Origin: Planctomycetota bacterium
GTDB taxonomy: Bacteria; Planctomycetota; Planctomycetia; Planctomycetales; Planctomycetaceae
Assembly: GCA_027618475.1 (NCBI GenBank)
Contig: JAQCEJ010000034.1
Span: 1-50,138 of the forward strand
DNA: 50,138 nucleotides
Direction of reading: 5' to 3'
The notes under the pieces were generated by a model. The model was given only the letters and a program-made list of their open reading frames with translations, ran no database searches and was not told where the DNA came from. Shown one piece after another: positions 25,696 to 40,036 of this stretch (position 1 is its first letter; each line of letters begins with the position of its first letter). Both the position numbers and the translations under genes were made by a program.

Positions 25696-28600
25696 TTACT
25701 TTCTCTCCTCCGATAGAGATTCTTGTAAAGCCGTTTCATATTGTTGCTGTAATTGTCGAAGTTCTTCCGCCTCTTCTTCGTCGGCAAGCGGCAGCGCCGT
25801 CCGGATGAAGTCGACCGCCTGCTGATAGTTATGTTGACCAAATTTCAGCCGCGCCTGGTATTTTTGGGAAAGACATTCTTCTCCGTTGTATTTTAGAGTG
25901 CGCGCCAGGTATTCAACACCCTCCAACATTTCCGGCGTGGCCTCTGAATCGGTGAGAACACGTTCGACTGCCGCCATTGCATTCACGGCTTCGTATCGAT
26001 CGAGGCTTTCCGCCAATTTTAATTCCGATTCCCCTTCCTCTCGTTGTCCTAAGATGAATAGTCCTGCCGCCAGAAGAGAGTGCATTCCGTTTTTATCCGG
26101 TTCGGCTTCCAACACGCGACGGCAAAGTTCAACCGTTCGTTCTGGTGCCGAATGTAACAAGCATTTCGCCAATTCACGCATGGCGAGGTAATCGGCAGAA
26201 TCCTCATCAATCCGCTGTTGCCAATACGCAATTCTTTGACTTTTTCTGACAGACTTGTCAGGAATGGGGGTCGTTGTCAATTTGCGGACGCGGACGTTTC
26301 CCAGTGAAAACTCGCCATTGTCCTTCGAGTGGTAATAGCTATTCGAAGCCATTTCTCCAAACGTTAGAAACCATGTCGGATCAAGTGGGCCCCAAAGCGG
26401 TCCACAATACGAGAACTGATTGACGTGAAACTCACAAGCCGTTTCCCACAGTTTCAGTCGAAGTTTCTGTGCCGGTTCAAGCTGATTTGTTGGACCATAA
26501 TTTATCCAGTTGCGATCACGTGGGTATGTCGCCATGACACCCATACTGTCGGCGTAAGTGATTCCGAACAGGAAATACGCGGGCTCCTGTTTTATTTCTT
26601 TGTCCTTTTCTCGCCTATCGATTCGCGGGGGAGACCAGGCAATTCCTTTTACGAGGTCGTTGAATGAAAGATTTGGCATCGCTGGGACAGTGGCATCCAT
26701 TTCAACTTCCAGAGGGAACTGCAACGCAATGAGCGGCCTTCCCCCGGTGGGATGATGGAATTGATCGTTGCCGCGAACCGTCCAAAGCTGGGTTGACTCA
26801 TTGTAGGACACTTCCTGGCCGTAAAACTCCCATCCGGAGGATTCCGGGCCCTTCAGCAGGTCGACCCATTGACCGAGTGAAAAATCTTTGCGCTGCTGGA
26901 TCATCGTTTCGATATGTTTAAGGAACGGTTGTGCTTTGGGATCTACGGTATTTTCTTTTATTACTGACCAATCTGCATTCAGTTGGTTTTGTGCCTCTTC
27001 TGACAGCGTTATAGACCTGTCAAAAAGAAGTGTGTGTTCCACACGTTCGATCGGTAGGCGCGTGGTATCGGTCATGGCTTTCAATTTTGCGACTTCATAT
27101 GCTCCGTCGTGGTATAAATGCAGCGGCCATTGTGGCTGGTAATTGTCTGGTGCTGTCAGGGCGGCCTGTTGAGCGGCCCGAGGTAGCTGATAGGCCAAGT
27201 ACCATTCGATAGGGCGAGCGGGAAATGCCGGCGGCGTACACATTTTCTCAGGATCGTTATTTTCACGCAGCCAGTTTGCCCGGTTCAGGCATAAGTCATC
27301 GAGCAGCAACTTGGCAGCCGGTATATCGGTGAAGAGTCGATCCTTTGGATGTTTCTCGAAATGTTCAAGCTTGTAAATGACTTCAAGTGCATTGTACGGA
27401 ACATAAGTATCGAAGCGACGGGTCGCCACACAATCCTGTCCGAACGCCAACATGGCGGCTTCACTTCCTCTCCAGCGTGGCAGTAGCGATAACAAATATT
27501 GGCTATAGGCCGATTCGTAGTCGAATTGTGCATCGATTGACTTTTGAAACCAATCGGCGGTTGTGCGATTCTCGTCGGAACCTCCCATCGTGGCCCTGAT
27601 CATCAGCGATGCGGCAAAGGGATAGTCTGGGCGAAGCAGCCAGGCGCGGCGCAGATGGACCTTCGCCAAGTCGTTATAGTTATTGAATTTTGACCATTGG
27701 TCACGTGTGACATCGTTCGCATACTTTGTGCCGCGCGCATATCCGGCGTAATCGAGGTAATACTCTCCGGCCAGAACGTGCTGGATATATCGAGGGAGTT
27801 CTCGATCATTTGCGATATGCCACATAACATTCCCTGGGCAGGGATGGCCTGTGATTTCAAACAGGCGACGTGTTATGCAACGATGCCATTGGGCGTCAGG
27901 AGCTTCGTCTTTTATCCATTTCACGATGGACATGTTCAACGACTCTAATCGTTGAATTTTGACGATATCGTCACTGCTGGTTCGTCGCTTGAGTATGTGT
28001 CGCAAACTCACTTCTGCAAACGGAGGATAAGTCATATTCAGGAGTTGTGCGAGTGATGCAAGAACTTCCTTCTCGATACGATCTTTTAATGACTCGTCAC
28101 CGTTATCTGAGTATATCCATTCCAGGGCGCGTCCCCGCAAAAACGGATCGGATGTGGGACTGCTCAAGATTTCTTCAGCGAGATGTTCCATCTCCTTTGC
28201 CGTTGGAGCGGTCTTATTCTGAAATTTGCAGGCGTGAGATTTACGGAAGAACGCTTCTCCCCGTTCTTTGGATTCACCCTGGTCTGACGTATGAGTCAGA
28301 TATAATTCGATATCACGCGCGCAGTAGCGTTCATATTGTTCATTGTACTCGGCTGTCGTCGTAGCCTTCGGATTGGGAACTACCAACGCCCGGAGACGTC
28401 CCGAAGGTCCAAATGCTAACTCAAATTCGCTATGGGCGTCGTTTGCTTCGTCGTAGAGCCATTCCAGTCGTTCATTCAGCTGGTACGTCAAATCCTGGTT
28501 ATGACGACTTATCGCTGCTTGCAGTTGCTCTACCGTCATGGGAGAGATTGGATCCGGTTGTAGATTTCGACGTTGAATCGTTTCTAACAACCTTGATCTT

Positions 28601-28749
28601 TCATTTTGACGATTGGAGACATCAATCTCCTGACGTTCGAGGTCTATTTGCCTGCGCTGAAAGTAGAGAAGCGTTGAAAGTCCCCCTAACAGGGACAAGA
28701 GTAAGACCGGTTTCACCCAGCGGTTTGTTTTTGGTGCAGACTTTGTCAT
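25696..28749 (-). CDS. large membrane-anchored TPR-like protein of unknown function
   Basis: The start at 28749 has AGGAG eight bases upstream (the frame is open nine codons further). The 1017-residue protein has a basic N-terminus, one hydrophobic helix (KPVLLLSLLGGLSTLLYF, residues 13-30) and a charged, coiled-coil-prone segment (RRQIDLERQEIDVSNRQNER). The long central region is largely helical and contains several W-rich blocks (WLLRPDYPFAASLMIRATMG). A beta-type domain lies around residues 640-850. The C-terminal 170 residues are TPR-like: YLAMRELAKCLLHSAPERTV, VLEAEPDKNGMHSLLAAGLF. It is probably anchored to the cytoplasmic membrane with the bulk outside. I recognise no named family beyond the TPR-like end. 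It is a single gene, with a MITE-like element after it. Confidence 0.78.
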   Translation of the reverse strand: MTKSAPKTNRWVKPVLLLSLLGGLSTLLYFQRRQIDLERQEIDVSNRQNERSRLLETIQRRNLQPDPISPMTVEQLQAAISRHNQDLTYQLNERLEWLYDEANDAHSEFELAFGPSGRLRALVVPNPKATTTAEYNEQYERYCARDIELYLTHTSDQGESKERGEAFFRKSHACKFQNKTAPTAKEMEHLAEEILSSPTSDPFLRGRALEWIYSDNGDESLKDRIEKEVLASLAQLLNMTYPPFAEVSLRHILKRRTSSDDIVKIQRLESLNMSIVKWIKDEAPDAQWHRCITRRLFEITGHPCPGNVMWHIANDRELPRYIQHVLAGEYYLDYAGYARGTKYANDVTRDQWSKFNNYNDLAKVHLRRAWLLRPDYPFAASLMIRATMGGSDENRTTADWFQKSIDAQFDYESAYSQYLLSLLPRWRGSEAAMLAFGQDCVATRRFDTYVPYNALEVIYKLEHFEKHPKDRLFTDIPAAKLLLDDLCLNRANWLRENNDPEKMCTPPAFPARPIEWYLAYQLPRAAQQAALTAPDNYQPQWPLHLYHDGAYEVAKLKAMTDTTRLPIERVEHTLLFDRSITLSEEAQNQLNADWSVIKENTVDPKAQPFLKHIETMIQQRKDFSLGQWVDLLKGPESSGWEFYGQEVSYNESTQLWTVRGNDQFHHPTGGRPLIALQFPLEVEMDATVPAMPNLSFNDLVKGIAWSPPRIDRREKDKEIKQEPAYFLFGITYADSMGVMATYPRDRNWINYGPTNQLEPAQKLRLKLWETACEFHVNQFSYCGPLWGPLDPTWFLTFGEMASNSYYHSKDNGEFSLGNVRVRKLTTTPIPDKSVRKSQRIAYWQQRIDEDSADYLAMRELAKCLLHSAPERTVELCRRVLEAEPDKNGMHSLLAAGLFILGQREEGESELKLAESLDRYEAVNAMAAVERVLTDSEATPEMLEGVEYLARTLKYNGEECLSQKYQARLKFGQHNYQQAVDFIRTALPLADEEEAEELRQLQQQYETALQESLSEERK

Positions 28750-29183
28750 GCCGACCACTCCTGTCAGTGGACACATTCACGCCCATTATCGATCGGAAAT
28801 TGACCGACGGGCTTCGCTTTCAATCGCACTTTCAACCAATGATATCCATAATCGCAATGTCGTTCTACGATTGGGACAATTCAAATTGCTCAACGCTCTT
28901 CATACTTCTTTTTGTATTTGAAAACCAAGGATCATGTTTTTCCGATTTTCGAAATGTTGTGTAATATTTTCAATGCTGGGTCGTTCGTCCGTTCTTCTTC
29001 TGCTTCCGCTCTGGACATAAATCGCCGGATTCGTACAATCCCGCAGATTCTGCCGGTGTACCATTCGTGCGCAGCGGTGGAATGATCTCAGCTCCTTGAG
29101 TCCACTCCCAAGTTCGATCTCTTCTTAACTCTCTCTCCCCGCAATCTCAGCGATATCGATCCTCCCCGCGAAAGGACCACGAC
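28750..29183. other. 434-bp divergent intergenic region
   Basis: It holds the promoters of the TPR-like gene and the lipoprotein gene. No repeat, hairpin or small gene is convincing; the ribosome-binding site AAAGGA for the lipoprotein lies at its right end. Confidence 0.45.
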
Positions 29184-30067: not shown

Positions 30068-30943
30068 TTAATTCTCTGCTCGATGTTCCGGAAATTCTTG
30101 CTCGTACAGCTTCACCAGGGCCTCGACGTCGGCAGGAACGATGTAGAGTTTGCCGCGGATTGTCTTCGATTCTCCCGGTTTGAGTCCGCCGATGCGGAAG
30201 TCGGCATGTACGCAGTTGGCGACGCCTTGAAATAATTCCTGATAAGGATGCCATGCACTGGCGAGAATCATCGATTCGTCGCTTGAAAAGCATCCGATCA
30301 ACCCATTCGACGGGATGTCGTCACTCAACGGCCGGGGATTGACATCGTTGCGGTTGACACCTTGAGGACACCATACCTGACCTGGAGTATAACGGGCTTT
30401 GGTGGCCCAGTTCGGCGTTGGCATCCGTGTCAATTCATCGTCGAGAAAGACGAAAAGTTTTTCAAGGTATGTTTTCTGATCGCGTCCGGTAAAGCGATCG
30501 ACGCGCACGCAGGGCTGAGCCCAGTCGGCTAATGAAGCCGTTTTTGTCGGATTCGTTGCCTTCAGGTCGAACTGCACACCGTCGGTGACGGCCGTAATCT
30601 TGTGCGTCACGATGACACCATCGTTGAGAGTGCACTTGAGGCGAATCGTTTTACCATCTTCCGATGCGTCGACAAGTTCGGTCATGTGGCCGATTGTGGT
30701 TTCTCTCCAGTCGCGATCGGTCGAACCAGGACGGCAGTATGCTTCGAGATACATGACGGTGATTTCCCCACCGGGAATCGAATCTCCTGAAATCGTGAGG
30801 AAGTTTTTCTCCCACACCAGTCGAAATGATGACGGTTTGGTTTTCGTCGATGCCGTATTGGCGTCATCACCGTAAATCGTTGAATTCATCGATAGAAACA
30901 ACGCGAGAAATCCCCATGTCATGAGTTGGGTTCTAGAATTCAT
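30068..30943 (-). CDS. secreted protein of unknown function
   Basis: The 291-residue product has a Sec-type signal peptide (MNSRTQLMTWGFLALFLSMN, cleavage probably near IYGDD). AGGA precedes the start. The mature part is predicted to be mainly beta strands: SSFRLVWEKNFLTISGDSIP, EITVMYLEAYCRPGSTDRDW, IRLKCTLNDGVIVTHKITAV. Together with conserved Trp residues (WAQPCVRVDRFTGR, GQVWCPQG), this recalls a carbohydrate-active beta-sandwich, but no catalytic residues can be assigned. Similar exported proteins occur in Planctomycetes; no family name is recalled with confidence. It is divergent from the giant haem protein gene, with 194 bp between starts. Confidence 0.75.
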   Translation of the reverse strand: MNSRTQLMTWGFLALFLSMNSTIYGDDANTASTKTKPSSFRLVWEKNFLTISGDSIPGGEITVMYLEAYCRPGSTDRDWRETTIGHMTELVDASEDGKTIRLKCTLNDGVIVTHKITAVTDGVQFDLKATNPTKTASLADWAQPCVRVDRFTGRDQKTYLEKLFVFLDDELTRMPTPNWATKARYTPGQVWCPQGVNRNDVNPRPLSDDIPSNGLIGCFSSDESMILASAWHPYQELFQGVANCVHADFRIGGLKPGESKTIRGKLYIVPADVEALVKLYEQEFPEHRAEN

Positions 30944-31137: not shown

Positions 31138-34100
31138 ATGCATATGAATTGGCGACGATCAAAAGACGATGTTATGTCATGGAGAGTCTGTGCTTTGGGA
31201 TTGTTCCTCTTGTGGGGGTGGTTTTATCCTGCCGCCGCGCAAGAATCCTCCTCGCTTGTTGTAAAGCCAGGAGATGAAATTCTTTTTACGCCTGCTGGCT
31301 TCGATGCTGCTGGTCTTCCCGCCGTGGCAAGCGGCAAGAACACCGGCCGCGTTCGAATTCGCGTGTACGATGAATCGACCGGTGAACCAACCTGTTGCCG
31401 TATCAACGTCATCGGATCTGACGGTCAATTCTACCAGCCGGCCAAGAATCGTCTTTCCGAATATGGATTCACCGGATACTGGCCTGGCGAAGGGCATCGT
31501 GCCAATCGCGCTGAGAAGGCCCCCATTCGTTACTACGGCTGGTTTTTCTATTCAACCGGTGAAGACGAGGTTGTCGTTCCTGCGGGATCAACCCGCATTG
31601 AAGTCTATAAAGGGTTTGAGTTCTCTCCGTTGAAATTCACAGCAGAAATCGATGCCGAGTCGACTTGTGAAGTGGAATTGACGTTGCGGCGTACCCTGGA
31701 TGCAGGAGAGTTTGGCTATTATTCGGGCGACCCACATCTACACCTCACCCGTTCGACTGAAGACGACGAGCAACTCATCTTCGACCTCCTCGAAGCGGAA
31801 GACGTCCGTTACGGCAGCATATTAGCCTACAACGAGCCGGCTGGTCCCTATTTCGGACTGATGGATCGTATGGACATGCCGCAAATGCGCGGATTCGGGA
31901 GTGAGTCGATCGTGGAACGTAACGGCTACGTCATGATGTCGGGACAGGAATACCGAAGTGGCACGTACGGACATCTCAATTTATTTCAACGCGATGAACT
32001 CGTGCTTCCAGGGCAGAATGTGAATGCAGACAATTGGCCCCTTTACGGTGAAGTAGGACGGCAAACTCAAATCGACGGCGGTTACGCGATGTATGCCCAT
32101 GGAGGCTACTCGCAATCGATCTATGCCGACTTCGTTCAGCGAACCGTCAACGGGGTCGAACTATTGCAATTCGGTGTGTATCGTCCTATCGGCCTCGAAG
32201 ACTGGTACAACATTCTCAATATTGGATATCGATTTCCCGCCAGTGGTGCCAGCGATTATCCGGCGTGCCGGGCCTTCGGAGATTGTCGCACCTACGTCTA
32301 TTCGGCAGAAACACCGTCGATGAGTGAATGGCTGAAAGGCCATGCCGAGGGACGGAGCTTCATGACGACTGGTCCCGTGTTACTGCTGACCGTCGACGAC
32401 GAACATCCCGGTAGCACCATTTCCCACAAGGGAGACGAACCACAAAAAGTACACATCAATCTCTGTGCCCGTTCCGACGTCGCGCCTATCGAAACACTGC
32501 AACTCATCATCAATGGCAATGTCCACGATGTATGGGAGATCGACGAATCTGACCGACTGGGATCATGGACGAAAAAGGAGCTTGACCTCGAGTTGTCGGC
32601 TTCTGCCTGGATTGCGGCGAGGGTGTTTTCGACGTCGTCCGACGGTCGCCCCGATGCCGATGCACACACGAATCCGGTTTATGTCTACCGCAACGATCTT
32701 ATGCCGTACCAAGCCGAGTCGCTCGATACGATTATCGGTAAACTCGACGGTCAGATTGACAGACACCAACAGCGAGATTTTCCCGAGAGGGGAATGGTTC
32801 TCGATTATTTCAATCGGTCGCGAGAAATACTCGCCGAAATAGGTAGAGACAAGGGGATGACGTTCGAAGACTGGAACGCATTCGATCTCGAATCGAATGC
32901 GTTTGCAAAAAGCAATGATGTTGCCATCGATGTCAGCAAACGCGAGCACACCGACGAAGAACTGAAAGCGTTTCTACAACCGGTGCCTCCGAAATCACCT
33001 GAGGAAGCGCTTAAGACATTCGAGATGCTCCCCGGATTTCACATGGAACTCGTTGCCAATGAACCGCTCGTCGTTGACCCGATCGCCGCGGCATTTGATG
33101 AATCGGGAAATCTGTATGTCGCCGAAATGCGCGATTACCCCTACTTTCCCGCCGAGGGTAGCAAACCGCTCGGCACCGTGCGGATGCTCCGCGACATCGA
33201 CGACGACGGCACCTTCGATGAAGGGCATCTCTTCGCCGATGAACTTCTCTGGGCTGCAGGAATCGCACCATGGAAAGGGGGCGTATTTGTGGCAGCTCCC
33301 CCTGACATCTGGTATCTCAAAGATACCGACGGCGACTTCAAAGCCGATATCAAACGCAAAATCTTTACCGGTTTTGGAACACAGAATCAACAGGGAATGC
33401 TCAACAACCTGGTTTACGGCCTCGATCACCAGATTTATGGATCGACCTCTGTCAATGGGGGATCGATTCAGCACGTCGAGCATCCCGAAATCCCGCCGAT
33501 GAATCTATCGGGGCGTGATTTCCGCTTCGACCCCGTCACCGAGCGACTGAGTGCGATCAGCGGGACCGTGCAATTTGGAAACACATTCGATGACTGGGGC
33601 AACCGCTTTACGTGCAGCGAATCGCAACCCCTGTTGCATATCGTGCTGCCGCAGGATTATCTCGAACGCAATCCCTATTTCCCTGTTCCGAATGCGATTC
33701 ACAATATTGCCGGCGGTAATGTCCCGATTTTTCGTATCAGCCCGCTGGAACGTTGGCGGGAAATTCGATCGGCACGGCGGATCACGCACGGAGAACGTTC
33801 ACCGAACTCCGCCGGTGCGAGCCATCATGTGGCCGATGCCGCAGCGGGTGTGACAATCTATCGCGGAGTTAGCTATCCGCAGGAGATTTACGGCAATGTT
33901 TTCGTTGGAGATGCCCAAAACAACCTCGTACATCGCCGCGTACTTATTCCAAACGGGGTTACGTTCGATTCGCAGCGTGTCGATGAAAACACCGAATTCG
34001 TACGGTCATCGGATAACTGGTTCCGCCCGGTGAATTTTGTGAACGCACCGGATGGCACGCTCTACGTGCTCGACATGAGCCGGGAAATTCTCGAAGCCAT

Positions 34101-35928
34101 TCACATTCCACTTGATGTGGTCAAACACCTCAACCTCAAGAGCGGAAGAGAACATGGGCGGATTTACCGTATGGCACCTGACGGCTACAAGTATCCCGGT
34201 CGGCCAAAGCTTGGCGAGGCGTCGACCGATGAGCTTGTGACGTATCTGGAAAACCCGAACAGCTACTGGCGCGAAACGGCTCACCGGTTGTTATACGAAC
34301 GGCAGGATGCCTCTGCCGTCCCTGCGCTCCGAAAACTGTTGAACGAGAGTCGCGTGCCACAAGCTCGATTACACGCCTTATGGTCGCTGCACGGATTGAA
34401 TACGCTTAACAGTGACGACGCGCTGCGGGCATTAAACGACGAGATACCGTACATTCGCGAACATGGTTTACGCTTAGCTGAACCGTTTCTCGATCAATCG
34501 AAACCAGTTCTAGTGCGAACGATCGATCTGCTGAACGATCCTGATCCGCGAATTCGGTTTCAGCTGGCTTTTACGTTGGGGGCCTCAACAGATCCGGCAG
34601 CCATTGCGGCACTGGCCGTTTTGGCGAAAAAGGATGATCTCGATCACTGGACACGTACAGCAGTCATGAGTTCTGTCGCCGAGGTTGCCGATAGTCTGTT
34701 CGCGGAGTTGCTGGCTGATGAATCCTTCTGGAAAACCGGCAATGGTGTGGCGATGCTCGAACAATTGTCACAAGTCATCGGCATTCGTCACGATTCCAAG
34801 GAAATCCATCGCGCTCTGACTGCCGTGGCGGAGCATAAACCTTCGGAAGAGAACCTCGCTTTTCGCCAGAATATCATTTTAACAATGGGCGAGGGGATGC
34901 TCCGATCGAATGAATACTATGTGGTGACAGACCCACCGACAACGCCGAAGGACGAACTGCTATTGAAGGAGTTTACGAGAAATGCAGCGATAGCTCAGAA
35001 TACCGAAGAAGCGGACGATAAACGTATGCGTTCGTTGCGCGTGTTGAGTTGTTTCGAGTTCGAGAAATCCGAATCGATTCTGAAATCGCAGTTGAATTCT
35101 GAAAATGCTGTCGCAGTGCGTCAGCAGGCGATTCTATCGCTTTCCGGTTACGGCAGAGACGAAACGGGAGATTTTCTGCTTGAATATTGGGAGGAATATC
35201 CCGCCGAGTTGAAATTATTTGTCATCAATCAACTTTCGAGTCGTGAACTGTGGACACTCTCGCTGCTCTCGGCAATTGAAAATCAAATCATTCCTTCTGC
35301 GATTATCGAACCGGCCAAACGATCGCTTTGGGTGAATCACCGTCTCCCGGAAATTGCCAATCGAGCCAGATCGTTATTTGCCGATGATGCGAATAATCCG
35401 CGCAAGGACGTGATTGCGACATATCAGGAAGCGTTGACGCTAAAGGGGAACACAAAAAACGGATCGCAACTCTTCGAAAAGCATTGTTCTGTCTGTCATA
35501 AGATTGGTGAAAAAGGTACCGAGATCGGGCCAAATCTGGTTTCATCCCCCAACCGTGAACCAGCTGCGATTCTGCTGCATATTCTCGACCCGAACAATTA
35601 CGTGTTGCCGAAGTACATGCAATACGTCGTTGTTGATCTCCAGGGACGCAGCTACTCGGGTATGATCGCTGCCGAGACGGCGACGAGCGTCACGATTCGC
35701 AAAGATAAGGAAAAAGATCTGACGCTGTTGCGAAATGAGATCGATGAGATGGTTAACACGGGGAAATCGCTGATGCCCGAGGGAATCGAGAAACTGATCG
35801 GCATCAATGAGATGGCCGATCTGCTCGATTATCTCGTCAATGTGCAGGCCTCAGATGAAAGCCCCGCCGGTCCGCCAAAACTCGATGTGGGGACGAATCC
35901 CGGACTCGTCGAACCTGACAAAGAGTGA
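31138..35928 (+). CDS. fusion of CehA/McbA-like metallohydrolase and PVC-type haem-binding (CxxCH) protein
   Basis: The 1596-residue secreted protein has four regions. After a signal peptide (MSWRVCALGLFLLWGWF...AAAQ), residues about 45-185 look like a beta domain. Residues 190-540 match a CehA/McbA-type PHP metallohydrolase, with the metal motif GDPH200-L-H202 and later TYGHLNLF and YAMYAHGGY. Residues 620-1015 match the PVC N-terminal propeller (TIGR02604-like: FEMLPGFHMELVANEPLVVD, GNLYVAEMRDYP). Residues 1020-1420 form HEAT repeats. Residues 1435-1590 are a PVC C-terminal cytochrome c (HC1450SVC1453H1454K, then IGPNL). The start is ambiguous: 31138 has the best ribosome-binding spacing (GGAAGA), but 31114, 31126 and 31144 are possible. 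Function unknown; the haem end implies redox activity in the periplasm (inference). Confidence 0.87.
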   Translation: MHMNWRRSKDDVMSWRVCALGLFLLWGWFYPAAAQESSSLVVKPGDEILFTPAGFDAAGLPAVASGKNTGRVRIRVYDESTGEPTCCRINVIGSDGQFYQPAKNRLSEYGFTGYWPGEGHRANRAEKAPIRYYGWFFYSTGEDEVVVPAGSTRIEVYKGFEFSPLKFTAEIDAESTCEVELTLRRTLDAGEFGYYSGDPHLHLTRSTEDDEQLIFDLLEAEDVRYGSILAYNEPAGPYFGLMDRMDMPQMRGFGSESIVERNGYVMMSGQEYRSGTYGHLNLFQRDELVLPGQNVNADNWPLYGEVGRQTQIDGGYAMYAHGGYSQSIYADFVQRTVNGVELLQFGVYRPIGLEDWYNILNIGYRFPASGASDYPACRAFGDCRTYVYSAETPSMSEWLKGHAEGRSFMTTGPVLLLTVDDEHPGSTISHKGDEPQKVHINLCARSDVAPIETLQLIINGNVHDVWEIDESDRLGSWTKKELDLELSASAWIAARVFSTSSDGRPDADAHTNPVYVYRNDLMPYQAESLDTIIGKLDGQIDRHQQRDFPERGMVLDYFNRSREILAEIGRDKGMTFEDWNAFDLESNAFAKSNDVAIDVSKREHTDEELKAFLQPVPPKSPEEALKTFEMLPGFHMELVANEPLVVDPIAAAFDESGNLYVAEMRDYPYFPAEGSKPLGTVRMLRDIDDDGTFDEGHLFADELLWAAGIAPWKGGVFVAAPPDIWYLKDTDGDFKADIKRKIFTGFGTQNQQGMLNNLVYGLDHQIYGSTSVNGGSIQHVEHPEIPPMNLSGRDFRFDPVTERLSAISGTVQFGNTFDDWGNRFTCSESQPLLHIVLPQDYLERNPYFPVPNAIHNIAGGNVPIFRISPLERWREIRSARRITHGERSPNSAGASHHVADAAAGVTIYRGVSYPQEIYGNVFVGDAQNNLVHRRVLIPNGVTFDSQRVDENTEFVRSSDNWFRPVNFVNAPDGTLYVLDMSREILEAIHIPLDVVKHLNLKSGREHGRIYRMAPDGYKYPGRPKLGEASTDELVTYLENPNSYWRETAHRLLYERQDASAVPALRKLLNESRVPQARLHALWSLHGLNTLNSDDALRALNDEIPYIREHGLRLAEPFLDQSKPVLVRTIDLLNDPDPRIRFQLAFTLGASTDPAAIAALAVLAKKDDLDHWTRTAVMSSVAEVADSLFAELLADESFWKTGNGVAMLEQLSQVIGIRHDSKEIHRALTAVAEHKPSEENLAFRQNIILTMGEGMLRSNEYYVVTDPPTTPKDELLLKEFTRNAAIAQNTEEADDKRMRSLRVLSCFEFEKSESILKSQLNSENAVAVRQQAILSLSGYGRDETGDFLLEYWEEYPAELKLFVINQLSSRELWTLSLLSAIENQIIPSAIIEPAKRSLWVNHRLPEIANRARSLFADDANNPRKDVIATYQEALTLKGNTKNGSQLFEKHCSVCHKIGEKGTEIGPNLVSSPNREPAAILLHILDPNNYVLPKYMQYVVVDLQGRSYSGMIAAETATSVTIRKDKEKDLTLLRNEIDEMVNTGKSLMPEGIEKLIGINEMADLLDYLVNVQASDESPAGPPKLDVGTNPGLVEPDKE

Positions 35929-35935
35929 GCACGAA

Positions 35936-37762
35936 TCAGACCGTTTCTTTCACCCGGCCCGACTTCTTCCGTTCGTTTTCGGTTCGGTGAACTTTTCTTA
36001 AACGGATGATATTCGGCGTGACCTCGACGAGTTCGTCGTCTTCGATGTATTCAAGGGCCGCTTCGAGGCTCATCGCACGAGGGGGTTTGAGCAGGATGTT
36101 TTCGTCGCTTCCCGAGGCACGCATGTTCGTCAATTTCTTCTCTCTGATCGGGTTGACGACGAGGTCGTTGTCTCGCGAGTTTTCACCGACGATCATTCCC
36201 TCGTAAACATCGTCACCCGGTGCGACAAACAGCTCTGCACGCTCCTGAAGTTTGAACAGGGCATACCCGACGGCTTGACCATGTTCTTGCGAGACGAGTA
36301 CGCCGTTCAGCCGATGAGGAACTTCTCCCTCACAGGGATTGTACGAATCGAAGCGGTGATGAATGACCGCCTCGCCACGAGTGGCGTTGAGCAGACGGGT
36401 TCGCAGGCCAATCAGTCCTCGAGCGGGAATGCTGAAACGGAGGTGACTCGACCCGTTGGGGCTCGACTGCATGTCAACGAGTTGACCCCGGCGCGCACAG
36501 ACCAGTTCCATCACCGAACCGACGACCTCGGTCGGAACGTCGATCGAGAGAATTTCAAACGGTTCACAGACTTTGCCGGCGATCCGTTTGCGAATGACCT
36601 GCGGCTTTCCGACCGAGAGTTCATAACCTTCACGACGCATTTGTTCGATCAGGATCGACAAGTGCAATATTCCGCGTCCGGAAACCGTGAACGCATCTTT
36701 GTATTCTTCGGCTTCCTCAACCCGTAATGCCACATTGGATTGCATTTCACGTTCCAGGCGACGCCTGAGATGCCGGCTCGTAAGGAATTTTCCGTCCTGC
36801 CCCGATAACGGCGAATCGTTAATTGTAAACAGCATCGACAACGTCGGTTCGTCGATACTGATGCGCGGTAAGGCATTCGGAAATTCAGGAGAGGCAATCG
36901 TGTCGCCGATTTTAGGATCGGGTAACCCGATGATCGCGACAACGTCTCCCGCCGCCGCTTCGTCGATTTCAACACGGCCCAATTTTGCGAACGACTCAAG
37001 CGTCACGACCTGCCCGGCGACCTTGCTTCCGTCAGCTTTAAGGACAACGATCTTTTGGCCGGTCTTGACCTTGCCGCTGACAATACGCCCGACGGCGATG
37101 CGCCCGACGTAGTCGGACCATTCGAGTGTGGTGACCATCATCTGCAGCGGTGCTTCGGGATCTCCTTCAGGCCCGGGAACTTTATCGAGCACGACATCGA
37201 GCAAAGGTGCGATGGTCGGCGTAACGACTTTGGGGTCGTGAGTGGCATAACCTTCGCGCGCACTGGTGAAAATGTACGGAAAATCGAGAATCTTGTCGTC
37301 CGCTCCCAATTCGACGAACAGGTCAAAGGTTTCACTGAGGACAACGTGCGGACGACAATCGGGGCGGTCGATCTTGTTGATCACAACGATTGGTTGCAAT
37401 CCTGCCTCGAGAGCTTTTTTGAGAACATAGCGGGTCTGCGGACGTGGGCCTTCAAATGCATCTACCAGCACCAGAGCACCGTCGGCCATCTTGAGCACCC
37501 GTTCGACTTCTCCACCAAAGTCGGCGTGACCCGGCGTGTCGATGATGTTGATTTTGATTCCGTTGTACATCAGAGCGATGTTCTTGGCGAGAATTGTGAT
37601 GCCTCGTTCACGCTCCAGGTCGTTGGAGTCGAGAATGCAGTCTCCTACCAATTGCGTGTCGCGGAACAAGCCGCTTTGCCTGAGCATGCAATCGACGAGA
37701 GAGGTCTTGCCATGGTCAACGTGAGCAATGATCGCGATGTTACGGATGTCGTTGCGGCGCAT
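35936..37762 (-). CDS. typA: translational GTPase TypA/BipA
   Basis: TypA is a ribosome-associated translational GTPase of the EF-G/LepA group involved in 50S assembly and stress adaptation. The 608-residue protein has the usual length and begins [20 protein letters not shown], containing the P-loop. The switch motifs follow: [25 protein letters not shown] and NKIDRPD. Domain 2 ([18 protein letters not shown]) and the BipA-specific C-terminal part ([40 protein letters not shown]) are complete. No ribosome-binding site is obvious before the ATG. It is convergent with the haem fusion gene, 7 bp apart. Confidence 0.97.
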
Positions 37763-38419
37763 TATTTGTTGCTTGAATAGAGAAATTGAACGGGTTGTAA
37801 AGTCGGAAGGCAGATCGAGCGCAGTCGGTGTGAGTCGCTGGGGAAGGAAGCGGGATGGATTGCCGGAGGAAACTATGTAATTCTCGTCATCGTGGCCAAG
37901 ACTTCAATCGATCTTTGCTTCAACCCTGTTTGTCAAAAGAGTTGGATCCTTTACCGACGAAGTAGCCAGTTGTCTCAGATTGAGATTATCCTCCGATAAC
38001 CCATGTCGTAACCATGATGCAGACGTGGATTGTATTCAAACCGATCCCCCCTGCAGTACAGGCGGGAATTCACCATCGTGGAGAATATCATACGCATCCG
38101 GTGATGGGAAGAGAAGAGCAACTTTCTACCATGTTTGGATTTATATCGTACTGGATGTCGAACTGGCGGTATTCGATGAGCACGGACATTGATCGTCTTT
38201 ACTCTTCAAGAGTTGAAGTCGATGCGATTTGCATTTTTGACGGGCGATGGATTTAGCAGGAAATATGCCATAAAAGATTGTAGTGATATGACTTATGTTA
38301 TATGGATGGAATTGAAGGGCAGGTCCCTTGTTCATCTCTGGTTAAACAATTATTAACGTGTGGTACTTTGTGGGCCGTTATCAGAAACTTTAAATTGCGA
38401 CACTGAGGAACCGCTCTCG
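37763..38419. other. 657-bp divergent intergenic region
   Basis: It separates typA from the amidohydrolase gene and must contain both promoters. Short open frames (for example 38014-38256) have no recognisable features or ribosome-binding site. The right part (38270-38400) is AT-rich, and GAGGAA at 38405-38410 is the ribosome-binding site of the next gene. Confidence 0.5.
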
Positions 38420-40036
38420 ATGACGATTTCACATTTCCGAATTCCCGTTCATCTGATCGTTGTCATATTCGTCTGCTTAGTCGAATTTGGCTTACTGACG
38501 CCAACCGTTTCTGCCGACGATGTATCCCTTGCGACTGCCGATGTCGTACTGCGTAACGGCATCATCTATGACGGTTCTGATAAACCGGGCCGTAAAGGTG
38601 ATGTCGCGATCAAATCGGGTCGTATTGTCGCTGTTGGAGAGTTGACCGTCGAACGTATCGACGTCGAAATCGATTGTCAGGGGCTGATTATTGCACCTGG
38701 CTTCATCGATTTGCACAACCATAGCGACAGGCAGATTCTCGATGAAGCAACGCGAAGTAACCTGAATTACCTCACTCAGGGATGTACAACCATCGTCACG
38801 GGGAATTGTGGGTCGGGCCCTGTGAATGTCGGTGAATATTATCAGAAAATCGACGAGCAGGGAGCAGGAACGAATGTGTTACATTTGTTGCCGCAGGGAT
38901 CGCTCCGCAATGACGTAATGGCGACGGCCAATCGAGCGCCGACCGATGTTGAGCTGTTGGAAATGCAAAGGCTTGCCGCCAAGGCCATGCAGGAGGGCGC
39001 CTGGGGAATGTCGACCGGGCTCATCTATGTTCCCAGCTCCTATGCGACAACCGACGAGATCGTCCGAATCGCGGAAGTTGTTTCGCAGTCTGGCGGTATT
39101 TACGTCAGTCACATTCGTAGCGAAGGGCCGGAATTGCTGGTCGCGGTCAATGAAGCCCTCGACATCGGACGCAGCGCGCGATTGCCAGTCCATATTTCAC
39201 ACTTCAAATCGAGTGGTCAAGAGTCGTGGGGACTGGTTCGTCGTGCAGCGACAATCATCGAAGACGCACAGAAACGGGGAGAACAGGTCTCGGCCGATCA
39301 ATACCCCTATACGGCCTCCAGCACGTCGCTAGAAGCAACATTGATCCCCGCATGGGCACGTGCAGGAGGAAACCCCGCACTGGTGAAGCGATTAAATGAT
39401 CCTGAGACGTCTGAGAGGCTGATCGCAGAAATCACCGAATCTCTTAAGAGTAAAGGGGATGGTGCACCGATTTTCCTGGCCCGCTATTCAGCACGGCCGG
39501 AATGGGTGGGCAAGAATGTTTTTGAAATTGCTCACGAACAAAAGACCGAACCGTTGGATATCGTGCTGCAGATCACCCGCAACGGAGGTGCCTCCATCGT
39601 TAACTTCGGTATGAGTGAAGATGATGTTCGGCATGTGATGTCGCTTCCCTGGGTTGCCACGGCATCCGATGGGCGCGCCTACATTCCCGGTTCCGATCGT
39701 CCCCATCCCCGCAGTTACGGGACGTTTCCCCGCAAGATCGGCCATTATGCCCTTCATGAGAAGGTCATCTCGCTGGAACACGCTCTTCGCAGCGCAACCA
39801 GCCTTCCCGCGAAGATCATCGGTTTGACCGATCGTGGATGGATCAAACCCGACTACGTCGCCGACATTGTGGTATTCGATCCACAACAATTCATCGACAT
39901 AGCGACTTTCGAAAAGCCGCACCAGCATTCGCAAGGTGTTGTACACGTTTTTGTGAACGGGAAAGCGGCGATCAAGGATGGTGTACCGACCGGGCTTCTC
40001 GCGGGGCGATCCGTGCGACATGTCGTGTCCGAGTAG
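38420..40036 (+). CDS. D-aminoacylase-like amidohydrolase, secreted
   Basis: The start at 38420 (GAGGAA nine bases upstream) gives a 538-residue protein with a signal peptide (MTISHFRIPVHLIVVIFVCL, cleavage near VSA). The mature part is a composite metal-dependent hydrolase of the N-acyl-D-amino-acid deacylase family. It shows ADVVLRNGIIYDGSDKPGRK, then the metal motif GFIDLHNHSD, the NCGSG block, and GGIYVSHIRSEG and PVHISHFKSSG histidine blocks. ADQYPYTASSTSL and TASDGRAYIPGSDRPHPR follow. The C-terminal strand region (GWIKPDYVADIVVFDPQQFI) is also typical. Such enzymes release D-amino acids from N-acyl forms; a periplasmic role in peptidoglycan-derived or protein-derived D-amino acid turnover is plausible. 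The MfnB homologue begins 71 bp downstream. Confidence 0.92.
   Translation: MTISHFRIPVHLIVVIFVCLVEFGLLTPTVSADDVSLATADVVLRNGIIYDGSDKPGRKGDVAIKSGRIVAVGELTVERIDVEIDCQGLIIAPGFIDLHNHSDRQILDEATRSNLNYLTQGCTTIVTGNCGSGPVNVGEYYQKIDEQGAGTNVLHLLPQGSLRNDVMATANRAPTDVELLEMQRLAAKAMQEGAWGMSTGLIYVPSSYATTDEIVRIAEVVSQSGGIYVSHIRSEGPELLVAVNEALDIGRSARLPVHISHFKSSGQESWGLVRRAATIIEDAQKRGEQVSADQYPYTASSTSLEATLIPAWARAGGNPALVKRLNDPETSERLIAEITESLKSKGDGAPIFLARYSARPEWVGKNVFEIAHEQKTEPLDIVLQITRNGGASIVNFGMSEDDVRHVMSLPWVATASDGRAYIPGSDRPHPRSYGTFPRKIGHYALHEKVISLEHALRSATSLPAKIIGLTDRGWIKPDYVADIVVFDPQQFIDIATFEKPHQHSQGVVHVFVNGKAAIKDGVPTGLLAGRSVRHVVSE

Follow-up and report, generated by a model that had tools for sequence, protein, structure and literature searches.

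The window, by which we mean the whole stretch of 50,138 nucleotides that was analysed, carries on its plus strand, at 31138-35928, one open reading frame for a protein of 1,596 amino acids. From the N- to the C-terminus, this protein is composed of a signal-like N-terminus, a beta-sandwich, a PHP-type metallohydrolase domain with a second beta-sandwich, a propeller, a HEAT solenoid and a c-type haem domain; the metallohydrolase part is called the head in what follows. The features at the locus are listed below.

31138..35928, + strand: whole open reading frame, 1,596 amino acids, ATG at 31138 and stop codon ending at 35928
31174, + strand: alternative in-frame start ATG, 36 bases downstream of the ATG at 31138
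31174..31242, + strand: probable signal peptide, residues 13-35, from hydropathy and inference
31339..31701, + strand: N-terminal beta-sandwich, transthyretin/carboxypeptidase-D-like, residues ~68-188, from the predicted model (Z 8.9 to 1qmu)
31711..32370, + strand: PHP-fold metallohydrolase domain of the CehA/McbA family, residues ~192-411, from NF038032 and a fold match
31735..31743, + strand: HxH metal motif H200/H202, in 41/41 close and 29/29 other aligned rows
31948..31974, + strand: E271 and H279, likely metal ligands, from the alignment
32098..32100, + strand: H321, likely metal ligand, from the alignment
32254..32256, + strand: D373, likely metal ligand, in 41/41 close and 23/29 other rows
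32371..32697, + strand: second beta-sandwich with the conserved H510, residues ~412-520, from the predicted model (Z 10.2 to SoxYZ 2ox5)
32995..34179, + strand: PVC beta-propeller (TIGR02604 / DUF7133), residues 620-1014, from profile matches and fold
34228..35397, + strand: HEAT-repeat solenoid, residues ~1031-1420, from HEAT_2 and the helical repeat in the predicted model
35446..35838, + strand: c-type haem domain TIGR02603, residues 1437-1567, from the profile match and homology to Kustd1711
35485..35499, + strand: CxxCH haem attachment, C1450-H1454, in 36/36 covering rows of alignment A4
35773..35775, + strand: M1546, the likely distal ligand of the haem, opposite M292 of Kustd1711 in the alignment

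The hydropathy maximum of the entire protein falls at residues 12-26, and the ATG at 31174, located just before this hydrophobic signal-like stretch, may be the true start. The genes on both flanks (30068-30943 and BipA, 35936-37762) lie on the minus strand, which suggests that this one is transcribed on its own. The earlier note on this DNA had described one polypeptide combining a PHP-type metallohydrolase with an HxH motif, a PVC propeller, HEAT repeats and a CxxCH cytochrome, and profile matches to NF038032, TIGR02604, DUF7133, HEAT_2, TIGR02603 and Cytochrom_C confirm all of these parts in the order claimed.

The head was recognised by the NCBIfam profile NF038032 (CehA_McbA_metalo) over residues 193-516, with 149 bits against a cut-off of 80. 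A model of the head built with AlphaFold2 from the window sequence and 40 relatives reached a mean pLDDT of 90.5 and a pTM of 0.92, and in this model the head has a PHP fold: among the VIA-align matches listed, the best was 2anu (Z 15.0, 191 residues aligned, 3.3 A), with further PHP-type matches to 3e38 (Z 13.6), PsfC 7rty (Z 13.1) and EndoQ 5zb8 (Z 13.0), and the best non-PHP fold scored Z 10.2. PsfC also ranked second among the Foldseek matches listed. The resemblance of the modelled N-terminal sandwich to 1qmu is middling and may reflect a common arrangement only. A phmmer search of PDB sequences with the head alone returned no significant match (best E 0.78).

The PHP-like metal site that the note had placed within residues 190-540 is borne out by this predicted fold and by the conserved HxH, E, H, H and D residues. 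In alignment A2, which comprises 70 rows (41 close and 29 more distant), the residues H200, H202, E271, H279, H321, D373 and H510 are conserved in all 41 close rows; across the 29 distant rows, H200, H202, E271 and H510 are kept in every one, and H279, H321 and D373 in 23. The seven are likely residues of the metal site. The six divergent distant rows (L057, L060, L062, L066, L067 and L068) carry Ala, Lys and Ala in the H279, H321 and D373 columns and retain the HxH, the E and the last His, possibly representing another metal site or a misaligned stretch. Three-metal PHP sites require further histidines, namely that of a second TDH-type motif and that of a final D-x-H. These third-metal histidines appear to be absent from the close rows, where Y-N-E/D and D-Y/F/W-P stand instead, a criterion that speaks to the three-metal subtype only, and their absence makes a two-metal PHP site the likely form of the head.

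CehA and McbA share with the head the PHP-type domain and the HxH, E, H, H and D residues, whereas they are stand-alone proteins of ~770-800 amino acids, devoid of propeller, HEAT repeats or haem, and only ~21-23% identical to the domain in the window. H279 aligns with CehA H453 and McbA H467, and H321 with CehA H495 and McbA H504; passages of a review describe these four histidines as important or crucial for hydrolysis (PMC8292978). The same passages list McbA H477 as crucial, and its counterpart is absent from the window protein, which has V289 at that place. The review's CehA His313/His315 are not histidines in the CehA record, where the HxH is at 351/353, so that the comparison with CehA was limited to H453 and H495. 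The CehA/McbA motif given in part of another paper, W-X-S-[AGST]-D-X-H-[ILV]-H-[AIL]-X(3)-[APST] (PMC5141477), was compared by eye with residues 194-207, and every position fits except the first, where Tyr replaces Trp. According to the same portion of that paper, carbaryl and 1-naphthylacetate are substrates of McbA, and the amide is left uncleaved (PMC5141477).

The propeller was matched by NCBIfam TIGR02604 (residues 633-1016, 273.3 bits against a cut-off of 122.2) and by Pfam DUF7133 (residues 620-1014, 394.5 bits). Residues 596-1596 were modelled with a pLDDT of 85.5 and a pTM of 0.77; fold matching of this model speaks to the propeller, the HEAT and haem parts being barely covered. The predicted six-bladed-type propeller fold found its best Z, among the matches listed, with the PQQ sugar dehydrogenase 3a9g (Z 26.2, 286 residues, 3.1 A), followed by 2ism (Z 25.1), 7cgz (Z 24.4) and 6i1q (Z 23.8), a set that includes PQQ sugar dehydrogenases and AA12 proteins. 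At Z ~21-24 the same list contains AA12, hedgehog-interacting protein, DFPase and NHL propellers, and the propeller fold alone indicates no function.

In soluble glucose dehydrogenase, PQQ is contacted at six positions: a His, an Arg-Asn pair, a Lys and an Arg-x-Arg. These positions were located in the window propeller by hhalign against a profile of 30 sequences around E. coli YliI, an alignment that is weak (probability 72%, E 3.4e-5) and on which one of the six contacts, R963, is kept. The catalytic His corresponds to a gap near N756/N757, Arg-Asn to V811 or a gap, Lys to Q927/N929 and one Arg to W961. A search for PqqE found no match above its cut-off in the window's own genome, nor in any of 14 control genomes, so that this search has no positive control; PQQ can, moreover, be taken up. 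With five of six contacts not kept on a weak alignment, and with the PqqE result read alongside, a PQQ enzyme appears unlikely, and the candidate assignment as a PQQ dehydrogenase propeller was set aside as unsupported.

The HEAT solenoid was recognised by Pfam HEAT_2, with four stretches in the protein, and the C-terminal domain by NCBIfam TIGR02603 (residues 1437-1567, 95.1 bits against a cut-off of 68.15) and Pfam Cytochrom_C (27.3 bits against 21.3). The protein contains a single CxxCH, at residue 1450, as does each of 30 four-part relatives. In A4, C1450, C1453, H1454 and M1546 are present in all covering rows (36 of 37). The TIGR02603 domain is homologous (E 4.9e-13) to each haem domain of Kustd1711 (7zs0), with the Met ligand aligned; Kustd1711 differs in consisting of two haem domains and no enzyme domain. 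Its haems are described, in excerpts of PMC11791136, as His/Met-ligated with potentials near +350 mV. By alignment, the window haem is probably His/Met-ligated too, and such an apparently six-coordinate haem points to an electron relay; no substrate site is evident.

With TIGR02604 and TIGR02603 both above their cut-offs and a single CxxCH, the window protein has the marks of a PVC-type heme-binding CxxCH protein and shares with that group the order of propeller, HEAT repeats and C-terminal CxxCH, although the usual representatives are near 1,000 amino acids and lack a metallohydrolase head. One protein of this general build, Lac161_ORF7 (AGW45552; TIGR02604, HEAT_2 and TIGR02603), has been purified from a heterologous expression host, and excerpts of the report describe it as a beta-galactosidase that hydrolyses lactose with a Km of 1.8 mM, assayed by glucose release (PMC5342196). 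It is the only purified protein with a propeller-HEAT-haem build found in the open-access texts searched, and it is likened to the window protein by domain description.

The alignments and frames show that the fusion is real and inherited. Profile scores well above the cut-offs, together with the recurrence of the domain order in other genomes, make chance or an assembly artefact very unlikely. Among 99 genomes including the window's own, the four-part protein is present in at least nine (own, G037, G015, G036, G023, G046, G090, G047 and G072), the G072 copy being frameshifted inside the propeller and not at a domain border. A thinner sampling of the phylum, with 392 genomes, gave a head match of some kind in 97 and a close one (>480 bits) in five (G000, G037, G090, G402 and G018). 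The head is fused in G000, G037 and G090, and in G402 as judged from frame length alone (1,998 amino acids). In G018 (606-aa frame) and in another G090 copy (700-aa frame) it is free-standing.

A scan of named genome contigs yielded 46 loci related to the window gene, eight of them on contigs that agree in length with those of relatives in the 99-genome set, so that the two sets overlap. Fourteen loci are truncated at a contig edge or carry a frameshift, and of the 32 uncut ones 30 encode head, propeller, HEAT repeats and haem in one frame; the loss of the fusion in all relatives, which the note had named as a refuting outcome, is thus not seen. The two exceptions are L079, a head alone, and L084, an esterase with a head. 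Most of the organism labels read Planctomycetota. Verrucomicrobia, Verrucomicrobiales, Verrucomicrobiia or Opitutaceae is the label of five MAG contigs, a kind of contig liable to misbinning, and one of these five (L107) ends before a propeller could show. Two loci come from cultured Singulisphaera strains, among which L073 is a full-length relative in Singulisphaera acidiphila. The fusion is not described in what was seen of the open-access full texts searched, and nothing on DUF7133 was found in open-access full texts.

The same frames reveal a recurrent link to an esterase. An alpha/beta-hydrolase homologous to BT1017 is encoded in frame at 13 of the 32 uncut loci, at the N-terminus in 12 (L072, L076, L077, L078, L080, L081, L082, L084, L087, L092, L110 and L114) and at the C-terminus in one, L108:5529-11522, where it follows the haem domain and a conserved tail in a 1,998-aa frame. 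The domain of L003, which shares its contig with L072 and was the sole member compared, matches BT1017 (6goc) with E 1.2e-62, and its Ser/Asp/His triad aligns with that of BT1017 at a fixed difference of 6 in residue number. In alignment A5, made of 15 added esterase domains with L078 and the frameshifted L096 excluded, the Asp and His are present in 15/15 domains and the Ser in all 14 covering rows, mapping to S282/D352/H388 of BT1017. L078 lacks the GxSGGG motif and its hydrolase domain looks degenerate. BT1017 itself, a Bacteroides thetaiotaomicron enzyme that we take to belong to family CE19, also has a DUF3826 domain, and differs from the window protein in having no PHP domain, propeller or haem. 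According to excerpts of PMC7939467, it is a pectin methylesterase dependent on S282, D352 and H388.

By Pfam and NCBIfam, the BT1017-like domain is absent from the 1,596-aa window protein, and none is in frame at 17 of the 30 uncut loci that have all four parts. The window's own genome encodes separate homologues of this esterase, the best 44% identical. In L102 and L103 a second, more distant esterase type, also absent from the window protein, is encoded directly downstream; in the 5'-cut L112 this type follows the head within one fusion, with no propeller. In the head tree, the distribution of the N-terminal esterase requires at least four changes (gains or losses), and L108 stands apart from the main esterase-bearing group; the tree is midpoint-rooted for drawing, has one very long branch (L046) and several weak forks, and scores L100 as esterase-free, though the contig of L100 is cut there.

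Other heads are also found on the propeller-HEAT-haem body. In 10 proteins chosen from about 21 further long-frame relatives among the matches listed, the heads were polysaccharide deacetylase in three, ceramidase-like in three, alpha/beta-hydrolase in two and none named in two; the loci with a named head are, in that order, L161, L163 and L164; L162, L168 and L169; and L167 and L170. The own genome has 18 DUF7133 frames above the cut-off, and the six long ones scanned gave a GDSL domain in one, ThuA in one, PA14 in one and nothing further in three, with no named hydrolase in four of the six. Individually, L195:548-5800 (contig C190, 1,751 amino acids) combines a GDSL acylhydrolase, a DUF7133 propeller, HEAT repeats, an F5/8 type C domain, a plastocyanin-like copper domain and a cytochrome c; L194:1552-6780 (contig C194, 1,743 amino acids) combines ThuA, propeller, HEAT repeats and cytochrome c, with an isochorismatase match below its cut-off; and the PA14 frame has its cytochromes in a different order.

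The reading we favour, as a tentative one that stops somewhat short of being probable, is that the window gene encodes an exported multi-domain enzyme for decorated carbohydrate, in which an esterase head is mounted on a glycan-processing haem scaffold. The protein would be exported and would work outside the cytoplasm. Its head, a CehA/McbA-like hydrolase with a PHP fold and probably two metals, would cut an ester (or carbamate-like) bond, while the propeller-HEAT-haem part would be a conserved scaffold that binds saccharide and may itself cleave it, with the haem acting as electron relay. In relatives, the scaffold would bear an additional BT1017-related esterase or quite different deacylating heads, and the natural task would likely be to strip off ester or acyl groups, an activity tethered to the handling of a glycan backbone. 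Sequence directly demonstrates the fusion, its conservation, the motifs and the recurrent esterase link; the PHP and propeller folds come from structure prediction, and export, ester hydrolysis, the glycan substrate, a propeller acting as glycosidase and the role of the haem are inferred. The repeated joining of deacylases to one body, together with the report on Lac161_ORF7, leads us to favour such a tethered glycan-processing enzyme over one that cleaves a single small molecule and oxidises it. A wider version, in which the PVC haem proteins as a class would be modular glycan enzymes with a constant backbone-cleaving body, perhaps a redox step with the haem as electron sink, and interchangeable heads that take off the ester or acyl decorations beforehand (CehA-type, BT1017-type, polysaccharide deacetylase, ceramidase-like and GDSL), with the window protein as the CehA-headed member, is unlikely.

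The earlier note had proposed cleavage plus oxidation within one periplasmic protein. Its hydrolytic half agrees with the PHP-type metal site; the coupling to oxidation is unsupported as stated, given that five PQQ contacts are not kept on the weak alignment, the lack of a PqqE match in a search with no positive control, the relay-type haem and a purified protein of the same build that excerpts of PMC5342196 report as a beta-galactosidase instead. In the most explicit form of that proposal, the head would cleave a substrate and the propeller-haem part, working as a PQQ-type sugar dehydrogenase, would oxidise the resulting product and deliver the electrons to the haem. The top propeller matches listed, all PQQ sugar dehydrogenases and AA12 proteins, and the c-type haem fused in the same chain are consistent with this, yet propellers of unrelated function score 21-23 in the same list, R963 is the one contact kept, and the own genome yields no PqqE above the cut-off (though neither do the 14 controls), so that we consider it quite unlikely. 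Oxidation might also be placed in the head. PsfC has oxidative character, and a dinuclear iron PHP centre of this type could supply the haem on the same polypeptide with electrons; 7rty is within the five best PHP matches listed and second among those of Foldseek, but its Z is tied with that of EndoQ and lies under those of plain PHP phosphoesterase-like proteins (15.0 and 13.6), and CehA and McbA, the closest characterised sequence relatives, are esterases. This makes a redox head very improbable.

A head that catalyses nothing, serving in ligand binding or structure, has its model in the PHP domain of E. coli DNA polymerase III, as portrayed in excerpts of PMC3666897. The apparent absence of the canonical third-metal ligands would suit such a role, as would the lineages in which the head is lost or separate; against it, all seven residues are kept in 41/41 rows, including the propeller-less L079 and L084, and we regard it as decidedly unlikely. 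Family membership is what suggests a carbamate or xenobiotic detoxification enzyme, like the CehA and McbA of pesticide degraders, but the gene is widespread in Planctomycetota MAGs of varied sources, and the head is held on a fixed tether to a saccharide-type scaffold and linked to a pectin-methylesterase-like domain, which renders this explanation extremely improbable. If the favoured reading of an esterase tethered to a glycan-processing propeller is true, it would represent a new layout of carbohydrate-active enzyme. Planctomycetota encode many large haem proteins without an assigned role, and their esterase and deacetylase heads would offer the first concrete hint of a substrate, namely decorated polysaccharides.

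Regarding the gene neighbourhood, a shared operon was considered and rejected: ten neighbours at related loci (nine same-strand next genes, from different loci with a flank, and that of L080) have no common theme or carbohydrate pathway, their matches being lipoate-ligase-like, CDP-alcohol transferase, PRAI, DUF389, Abhydrolase_7 and isochorismatase, with nothing for one. Within the window, a 1,026-aa open reading frame with a weak DUF4034 match only lies nearby on the minus strand (25696-28776), and one of amidohydrolase family 3 on the plus strand (38360-40036).
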